From Cryobacterium aureum (lineage in GTDB: Bacteria; Actinomycetota; Actinomycetes; Actinomycetales; Microbacteriaceae), in assembly GCF_002954245.1 (NCBI RefSeq), contig NZ_PPTG01000038.1, positions 1 through 64,000 on the forward strand: a DNA stretch of 64,000 bases, written 5' to 3'. The position numbers and the translations under genes were made by a program. Within the stretch, counting starts at the first letter, position 1, and each line of letters begins with the position of its first letter. The notes beneath the pieces are model-generated. The model did no database searches and was not told where the DNA came from. It was given only the letters and a program-made list of their open reading frames with translations. Below are positions 1,636 to 3,767 of this stretch, one piece after another.

Positions 1636-1674
1636 ATGACCGCGCGCACGAGCCTCGCCGGAGGGCGGCAATGA
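1636..1674 (+). CDS. Possible 12-codon upstream ORF overlapping the next start
   Basis: ATG at 1636 opens 12 codons and closes with TGA at 1672-1674, which overlaps the ATG of the Pr6Pr gene (ATGA). Its last codons carry the GGAGGG that serves as ribosome-binding site for the main gene. The arrangement would couple translation of the main gene to the leader. This is a sequence observation only; expression is not shown. Confidence 0.3.
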   Translation: MTARTSLAGGRQ

Positions 1675-2324
1675 GAGCGCGCACCGCGTTCGGCGTGGCG
1701 CGCCTCGGCCTGACGGCGGTGGGGCTGGTTGCGCTGGTCGGCTATTTTCAGTACACCCTCGGGGTCGCCGCGTTTGCGATGGCGAATTTCTTCAGCTATT
1801 TCACGGTGCAGAGCGCCATCGCATCGATTTTCGTCTTCCTGACGGCCGCCGTCGTCGCTCTGCGACGCCCCACCGACCCGGCCTGGCTCGACATGTTGCG
1901 CGCCATGGTGACGACCTACATTCTGGTCTCCGGCGTGGTCTACGGCATCATCGTCTGGCAGTCCTCCGGCGCGAACTATTCCATCGAAGTGCCGTGGTCG
2001 AGCCAGTTGCTGCACTTCGTGATTCCGGTCTTCGCCCTCATCGACTGGATCGTCGACCCGTTCAAGGCACGCCTGCCGTGGAAATATCTCAGCTGGGCCA
2101 TCGTGTTTCCGGTGTTCTGGCTGGTCTTCACCCTCATTCGTGGGCCGATCGTGGGCTGGTACCCCTACTTCTTTCTCGATGCCCGTCAGGTGAGCGGCCC
2201 CGGCGAGACCGTGTCCTACTGCCTGATCATCGTGCTGATCATCACGAGCATCGCGGCCCTGCTCACCGGGATTACGCGATTGAAACGGATGCCGCACCAC
2301 CGACTTCCGTACTGGCGCCCTTGA
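1671..2324 (+). CDS. Pr6Pr-family integral membrane protein
   Basis: A 217-residue protein with about six hydrophobic helices. Conserved-looking polar positions sit in the helices (FFSYFTVQS near residue 40, VPWSSQLLHFVIPVFALIDW in the middle, WYPYFFLD near the fourth loop), which matches the Pr6Pr (FAR-17a/AIG1-like) family of bacterial membrane proteins. The biochemical role of bacterial members is not established. Distant eukaryotic relatives hydrolyse fatty-acid esters of hydroxy fatty acids. GGAGGGCGG precedes the ATG. It is convergent with the amine oxidase gene, 33 bases away, and no strong terminator was seen between them. Confidence 0.75.
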   Translation: MRARTAFGVARLGLTAVGLVALVGYFQYTLGVAAFAMANFFSYFTVQSAIASIFVFLTAAVVALRRPTDPAWLDMLRAMVTTYILVSGVVYGIIVWQSSGANYSIEVPWSSQLLHFVIPVFALIDWIVDPFKARLPWKYLSWAIVFPVFWLVFTLIRGPIVGWYPYFFLDARQVSGPGETVSYCLIIVLIITSIAALLTGITRLKRMPHHRLPYWRP

Positions 2325-2357: not shown

Positions 2358-3767
2358 CTACTGGTCGGGTACGGCGAGGAACGGCTCGAGCGCGGTGAGC
2401 GCCGCCGCGAGAAAGGCCTCGTCGTCGAGTTCGCTCAGGCGGGTCGCGTTTTCGGCGGCGATCAGCCCCATCAGAACGGGCTCGCCGGTCAGCGGCATCA
2501 TGTTGATCCAGACCGGAAAGTCGGCGTCTTCACCGACGATGGTCCAGAGACGGGCGGACGTCTCCCAGAACGGCGCGTCAAACCGCAACCAGATCTTGTC
2601 GACCACGCCCATACCGAGCGCGCCGATGGCACCGCGATGGGCGAACGGAAGCGCCGGCGAGAATTCGATGGCCGCGTCCTTCAGCACACCGAGCGGCACG
2701 GTCACGATCACCCGATCGGCGGACAGCGACTCGCCGGTACCGAGGCGCAGGCTCACGCCATCGTCGTCGTGGGCCACGCGATTGACCACACTCGAGAGCA
2801 GCAGCTCGAGGCCTTCCGCGTCGCCGGCGAGCAGGGTTGAGTATCCGCCCAGCACGATCTGGTCATCGTCGGCGCTCGCACTATCGGTCGTGTACCAGGC
2901 CGATTGCTGGCTCGGTGTGGCCCCGGTTTCGACCTTGAGTTTCGTGGCGATCTCGTACTCGAGCCAGTCGGCATCCGAGAGGCCTTCGGCGTTCGGAGTC
3001 TTCGACAGGCTGGCTTCGCCCGAATCGACCAGGGCACGTTCTACCGAGACATCCTGCTGCTGATTGGCCGCCCAGCTGAGGGCGCCGGCGACGGCCTGAG
3101 TGCCAAGTGGTGATACCTCGACGACCTCCCCGGCGCGGGTTCGCACCTCGGGCGTACGCACGAACGGTAGTAGCTTCACTCCAAGAGCGGTGAGCTCGTC
3201 GTCCAGAAAACTGTCGGCGGTGTTGTGCACGAACGAGGGACCACGTTCGATCGGAAATGGCCAGTCGGCGCTGACGGTATCGATGCGCCCACCAATGCGG
3301 TCGCGCGCCTCAATCACGACCACGTTGAAGCCGTCGTTGACGAGTTCCCTGGCCGCCGTTATCCCGGCAATTCCGGCACCGACAATCGTGATGCGTTCCC
3401 CCGGAGCCGCGATGTCTCGCACCTGGCTGGCCGCCAGCAGGCCGGAGGCGCGGGCACCCTGCACGGTACCGGGCTCATCAGCCGCAGTGGCTTCACCGGC
3501 GAAGAACACTCGGGCGTCGACTGCCTGGCCGAGGGCAGCTCGGTGCTCGGGAGTGGCGCCGACGGCGGCGTAGCTGAATGATCCACGGGAGAAGGGGTCG
3601 GTCGACCAGTTGGTTCTGGAGACCGTGAGCGGCTGCGGAACCAGCGAGGGGGTGAGCGTGGTGGGCGACGGGGATGTCGTCGGCACCGGCGCCGGCGCCA
3701 CGCACGCTGCGAGGGCCAAGACGGAAAAACCCGACGCTGTGCCGAGCAGAAAAGTGCGCCGCTTCAC
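2358..3767 (-). CDS. Flavin amine oxidase lipoprotein with circularly permuted domain order
   Basis: A 469-residue exported FAD-dependent amine oxidase of the monoamine-oxidase/polyamine-oxidase family. It starts at a GTG with an MKRRTFLLGTASGF leader and a lipobox ending at Cys22. The nucleotide-binding GAGIAG lies at residues 130-135, followed by EARDRIGGR (153-161), yet residues 51-116 already carry the segments that normally close this family: TDPFSRGSFSY, FFAGEAT, and PGTVQGARASG. The protein then ends at the EPFLAVPDQ helix, just where the canonical C-terminal part should continue. Total length without the leader (about 430) equals a whole oxidase, so nothing is missing; the parts are reordered. 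Function as an amine oxidase is inferred and the substrate is unknown. Confidence 0.8.
   Translation of the reverse strand: MKRRTFLLGTASGFSVLALAACVAPAPVPTTSPSPTTLTPSLVPQPLTVSRTNWSTDPFSRGSFSYAAVGATPEHRAALGQAVDARVFFAGEATAADEPGTVQGARASGLLAASQVRDIAAPGERITIVGAGIAGITAARELVNDGFNVVVIEARDRIGGRIDTVSADWPFPIERGPSFVHNTADSFLDDELTALGVKLLPFVRTPEVRTRAGEVVEVSPLGTQAVAGALSWAANQQQDVSVERALVDSGEASLSKTPNAEGLSDADWLEYEIATKLKVETGATPSQQSAWYTTDSASADDDQIVLGGYSTLLAGDAEGLELLLSSVVNRVAHDDDGVSLRLGTGESLSADRVIVTVPLGVLKDAAIEFSPALPFAHRGAIGALGMGVVDKIWLRFDAPFWETSARLWTIVGEDADFPVWINMMPLTGEPVLMGLIAAENATRLSELDDEAFLAAALTALEPFLAVPDQ

Follow-up and report, generated by a model that had tools for sequence, protein, structure and literature searches.

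In flavin amine oxidases the cofactor site draws on both ends of the chain, so that a circular permutant of such an enzyme directly tests how a split site assembles. The closest described relatives of the protein considered here are the amine oxidase domains of LSD2 (KDM1B) and LSD1 (KDM1A) and the polyamine oxidases of maize and yeast, all of which are canonical in block order. LSD2 and LSD1 carry the same FAD motifs as our protein, LSD2 being its best match by sequence and both being among its best matches by structure; our protein differs from the two in block order, in being bacterial and in having a leader with a twin-arginine (Tat) motif and a lipobox. A Pfam scan did not find the SWIRM and accessory domains of LSD1 and LSD2 in it, and 469 residues leave no room for a SWIRM domain, a zinc finger or a tower.

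Permuted flavin domains have been described in a different setting: according to the accessible part of the report, circularly permuted multi-FMN-bind1 proteins are bacterial extracytosolic flavoproteins that differ from the present case in that the FMN-bind domain is unrelated to the amine oxidase fold and the flavin is covalent (PMC11334425). A survey of circular permutations, in its accessible text, counts 54 cases and does not mention 'amine oxidase' (PMC4432964). Our literature search, with few subscription papers in reach and most papers available as abstracts, found no description of a flavin amine oxidase that is permuted in nature. As far as these searches reach, the protein is new as a variant of a known family.

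Block order within the protein

The window, i.e. the whole stretch of DNA that was analysed, comprises 64,000 nucleotides of Cryobacterium aureum (contig NZ_PPTG01000038.1, positions 1 to 64,000). The relevant features are given below; row counts refer to aligned sets of 59 permuted and 25 canonical proteins, to which we return later.

2358..3767, minus strand: circularly permuted flavin amine oxidase gene, 469 aa; GTG start at 3767, stop ends at 2358
3642..3767, minus strand: leader and Pro/Thr-rich spacer, residues 1-42; RRTFLLG twin arginine (R3 R4), lipobox-like LAAC (C22)
3414..3641, minus strand: old C-terminal FAD block, now at the front, residues 43-118; 43-116 match LSD2 700-773
3570..3602, minus strand: TDPFSRGSFSY motif, residues 56-66; from the sequence
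3486..3506, minus strand: FFAGEAT motif, residues 88-94; G91 and E92 invariant (59/59 permuted, 25/25 canonical rows)
3441..3473, minus strand: PGTVQGARASG motif, residues 99-109; A105 in 59/59, G109 in 58/59, G104 in 57/59 and T101 in 53/59 permuted rows
3399..3419, minus strand: new joint RDIAAPG, residues 117-123; gap between the LSD2 stretches, from old C-terminal helix to first Rossmann strand
2361..3398, minus strand: main oxidase part, Rossmann start and substrate domain, residues 124-469; LSD2 337-692, PF01593 from profile position 1
3363..3380, minus strand: GAGIAG dinucleotide-binding loop, residues 130-135; from sequence and alignment
2595..2597, minus strand: K391, presumed flavin-N5 lysine position; K in 32/59 permuted and 24/25 canonical rows
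1671..2324, plus strand: Pr6Pr family membrane protein gene, tail-to-tail neighbour; NF038065, E 2.7e-37

The reading frame, motifs and coordinates set out in an earlier note, made from the sequence alone, were all confirmed: the frame encodes 469 residues, the preceding in-frame stop lies only 4 codons before the GTG start, and TDPFSRGSFSY, FFAGEAT and PGTVQGARASG come before GAGIAG. The FAD-site motifs of the amine oxidases (GxGxxG...E, GGR, the GE of FAGEAT, and GAxxSG) are all present. Members of the Pfam family Amino_oxidase (PF01593) usually open with GxGxxG and close with the FAGEAT/GAxxSG block; in the window protein this order is reversed, and we therefore class it as a permuted variant rather than a standard member.

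Profile and pairwise searches recover the protein in two pieces. PF01593 matches with 220 bits (E 9.7e-65, cut-off 19.8) in two stretches, the better of which places residues 133-465 on profile positions 1-366 of 443. Among solved structures LSD2 is the best match by phmmer (whole-sequence E 4e-40). It is matched in two stretches: residues 124-461 fall on chain positions 337-692 and residues 43-116 on positions 700-773, the second stretch with an E of 1.1e-7. Such a match lies far beyond chance. In the same search, chain positions 435-506 of FMS1 match residues 49-119. Since LSD2 is matched in these two stretches only, with each part of the canonical fold covered once, the order swapped and nothing large absent or duplicated, the canonical catalytic domain is present once, with its last ~75 residues now leading the chain. 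Seven LSD2 positions separate the two matched stretches, and the cut lies among them: the main part stops, with EPFLAVPDQ as its last residues, in the loop that precedes the old C-terminal block.

Predicted structure

A first attempt at the structure, based on close relatives only (17 Cryobacterium sequences together with the window protein), failed, with a pLDDT of 36.6. For a second AlphaFold2 model we added unchanged fragments of three proteins of canonical order (from loci L018, L163 and L223), each block as its own row; with these canonical fragments among the input rows, the single chain was modelled at a pLDDT of 73.8 and a pTM of 0.76. Adding 37 to a model position gives the protein numbering. 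Ten-residue mean pLDDT values are 77-96 across model residues 51-120, a span that includes FFAGEAT and the old C-terminal helix as well as the joint and the start of the Rossmann fold; residues 21-40, inside the moved block, lie at 56-61, and residues 182-262 are disordered.

By Foldseek, LSD2, maize polyamine oxidase and LSD1 rank at the top, the overlay on LSD2 being loose (TM 0.60-0.62, rmsd 8.4-9.2). VIA-align gives Z scores of about 21 to the same three structures, with 21.7 to LSD2 over model residues 80-431; the polyamine oxidases of maize (1b37_B, Z 21.5) and yeast (FMS1; 4ech_B, 19.2, and 1rsg_A, 18.6) match likewise. Most of these alignments run from model residue 80-87 to 430 and are limited to the main part because the aligner is sequential and the moved block sits at the other end.

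In the model, the old C-terminal helix (protein residues 102-119) leads into the first Rossmann strand (125-129). By its confidence, the model lends indirect support to the idea that the moved block would pack into the FAD domain. One might imagine instead a domain-swapped permutant, in which the moved block would fill in the FAD site of a partner chain and the enzyme would be an obligate dimer. We consider such an arrangement very unlikely, given that a helix-to-strand joint of about seven residues fits neighbouring ends within one chain and that the monomer model has a pTM of 0.76. The old C-terminal FAD block (residues 43-118) precedes the GxGxxG Rossmann start, the old ends joined by ~7 residues. 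Under the preferred, single-chain reading, because the old N- and C-termini adjoin in the usual FAD domain, both blocks of one chain would fold into that domain and place the cofactor as in canonical relatives.

Distribution of the permuted order

Could the unusual order be an assembly or annotation artefact? A search of the genus recovered it in 57 of 57 Cryobacterium genomes, each with one uninterrupted match and no internal stop (as found, the matches start at query residue 28 or before and end at 412 or beyond). A separate contig scan returned 18 loci, 17 of them from 17 named Cryobacterium assemblies, and in every one of the 17 the main part follows the moved block within one frame; the eighteenth, L018, has the canonical order. 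With the order identical in all 57 genomes and all 17 Cryobacterium loci, the frame free of stops and a neighbouring gene conserved as well (see below), we regard the probability of an artefact as practically negligible.

Beyond the genus, the permuted order was found in at least 133 of 398 genomes of the family, counting matches that start no later than residue 83 and run past the joint; one or two of these frames contain a stop. The same family search contained a match over query residues 56-468 with five in-frame stops (G208:C22:131170-132465), apparently a decayed permuted gene. Across the taxonomic order (396 genomes, block order being read without the weaker matches of families f6, f10 and f15, the last in genome G510), the permuted order occurs in three genomes, which belong to two other families (f15 and f16), and a fourth candidate is canonical. 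The class search (394 genomes) found 13 permuted genomes of six families by block order (f35, f37, f43, f48, f51, f54), and a short match at the end of a contig adds one further genome, G804. The phylum search (396 genomes) yielded five permuted genomes (f72, f80 twice, f82 and f121), and in f85 the permuted order was seen only as a fragment, a frame of 290 residues. In total, 13 families of Actinomycetota besides the window's own have the permuted order, with block order assigned by HMM and the f85 fragment included. In most of these broad searches, from family to phylum, strict limits applied and four candidates were scored in each genome, which makes absence from a given genome weak evidence.

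Canonical relatives contain the same two blocks, with the block that is moved in our protein at the C-terminal end instead. One is a paralogue in the same genome (G000:C33:186360-187628); others are L018 and L163, the latter sharing the Tat-lipobox leader with the window protein. In the phylum to which the genome of L018 belongs, the one phylum outside Actinomycetota in which block order was read, 9 of 199 genomes matched and all four with a readable order are canonical. Scans of viral contigs found no permuted relative; they contained canonical matches at L163, L166 and L191 (one contig), at L164 and L173 (one contig) and at L223, along with a match to the Rossmann part only at L165. At the 52 loci of two motif scans, profile models identified an oxidase only at L191 and L223. 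A plasmid search gave eight records, and in none of them does the match extend over both the moved block and the main part.

Because the same block order is kept across the genus and in many other Actinomycetota, we are looking at a long-kept rearrangement rather than a sequencing mistake. The earlier note had read the protein as a permutation and not a fusion, a truncation or an assembly error, and that reading is now supported by the two-segment LSD2 match, by FAD-site residues in both halves and by the same block order in many independent assemblies, from Cryobacterium through its family to further families of Actinomycetota.

FAD-site residues, selection and the N5 lysine

The positions that we take to line the FAD site are identical in all 59 permuted and all 25 canonical rows, both in the main part (G130, G132, G135, E153, G159, G160, R161) and in the moved block (G91, E92, A105); the key residues are thus retained in both halves. 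Compared with 15 Cryobacterium orthologues (15 of the 17 loci; L015 and L017 were left out), the moved block gives dN/dS values of 0.015-0.148 and the main part values of 0.086-0.144, the leader being looser at 0.070-0.485. Both parts of the oxidase are under purifying selection.

One position of the active site is less constant. K391 lies at what we take to be the flavin-N5 lysine position of LSD1 and the polyamine oxidases, and a lysine is found there in 32 of 59 permuted versus 24 of 25 canonical rows. In the other 27 permuted rows it is replaced by T, V, R, L, Q, S or A, so that oxidase chemistry cannot be taken for granted in every member of the group; loss of the lysine is the strongest hint of changed chemistry in part of it. 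Imagine that permuted proteins had kept FAD and ceased to be amine oxidases, acting as dehydrogenases, redox sensors or pseudo-oxidases. The 27 replacements, set against a single one among canonical rows, speak for this possibility. However, the lysine is present in the window protein and in all 18 rows of the Cryobacterium set (window and 17 loci), and the key FAD positions are kept, and we think a wholesale change of chemistry rather unlikely. An amine oxidase remains our preferred reading of the window protein, which, once anchored, would oxidise a small amine-like substrate with O2 as acceptor.

Leader and export

R3, R4 and C22 are invariant in a 20-row alignment of the window protein and relatives from its family, and we read RRTFLLG plus LAAC as a putative Tat/lipoprotein signal. 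The protein would accordingly be exported folded, with FAD, by the Tat route and anchored as a lipoprotein. The earlier note had gone further and suggested that the permutation itself may reflect export or anchoring of the new N-terminus, a suggestion that finds no support here: inspection by eye revealed no leader ahead of the moved block in the permuted L081, L082 and L084, while a leader with twin arginine and lipobox is present in L163, whose order is canonical. On this pattern, permutation does not seem to be required for export, nor always to be tied to it.

Joint, cut site and origin

Measured in 56 permuted rows, the spacing between the G of GAxxSG and GxGxxG is 18-20 residues in 53 and 11, 23 and 27 residues in the others; three further rows of the 59 fall outside the pattern used. 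The cut lies in the same loop in 29 of 31 permuted rows inspected at both ends, the other two being fragments. A near-constant joint length fits either a single event or a strict structural limit.

For a phylogeny, 84 proteins (59 permuted, 25 canonical) were split into the two blocks, each block was aligned, and a quick tree was built. These are 84 of 101 sets, 17 near-copies or close relatives having been omitted, as were L094 and L120 as fragments; the canonical rows are the better matches to the permuted profile, so that the family is not evenly sampled. L081, L082 and L084, permuted oxidases of two other families with no recognisable leader, sit on a long branch.

Left free, the quick tree requires four order changes, as would be expected if the permutation had arisen independently several times in Actinomycetota, and the members from f15 and f16 differ from the rest, having no visible leader. 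Yet constraining all permuted rows to group together raises the likelihood by 4.14 (AU p 0.556), the joint is nearly fixed in length, and the same loop is cut in the 29 rows inspected at both ends. Repeated origins consequently strike us as unlikely. Because the constrained tree has the better likelihood and an AU p of 0.556, a single origin is allowed by the tree, though not shown by it.

Gene neighbourhood

A gene of the Pr6Pr family (NF038065) lies downstream of the permuted oxidase, in convergent orientation, in 50 of 50 family loci tested; these comprise the 17 Cryobacterium loci and 33 stretches of ~12 kb, with the window among the latter. The two matches are less than 200 bases apart in 46 of these loci. 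For permuted genes of other families, 23 surrounding stretches were searched, a few as short as 3-5 kb, and none contained a Pr6Pr match. We considered an operon of the two genes and rejected it: they are convergent, which permits no common transcript. Their association may be inherited synteny. When neighbouring proteins were clustered, no group beyond the oxidase and Pr6Pr-like proteins occurred in more than 4 of 33 loci.

Elsewhere in the window, positions 400-1275 on the plus strand encode a protein that is probably secreted: it shows, by eye, closely similar repeats of ~50 residues, matches BNR_2 weakly and has, at the C-terminal end, an LAATG-like sorting signal with a membrane stretch.

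Discussion

The permuted flavin amine oxidase is a real, conserved rearrangement of a known enzyme family. A single explanation appears highly probable to us, namely that in this protein the flavin amine oxidase fold, in its LSD/polyamine-oxidase branch of PF01593, has been circularly permuted in nature and is intact; its two blocks would fold together, and it would act as a Tat-exported lipoprotein on a small amine-like substrate.

A broader scenario is decidedly doubtful, though it would tie several of these observations together. A widespread subfamily of actinobacterial flavin oxidases, leaderless in some members and exported in others, might go back to one ancient permutation; with the chain ends moved away from the FAD domain, into the loop ahead of the old last block, the active site would have relaxed, several lineages dropping the N5 lysine and gaining chemistry other than amine oxidation, and in Microbacteriaceae the enzyme would work with its Pr6Pr neighbour, a partnership suggested by synteny only.

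The case also carries a warning, in that profile searches see permuted proteins in pieces: the best Pfam stretch here ends at position 366 of 443. A natural permutant carried by all examined genomes of a genus and found in many families across its phylum would show that new chain ends are tolerated by the flavin amine oxidase fold, and would offer a template for engineered oxidases with relocated termini.
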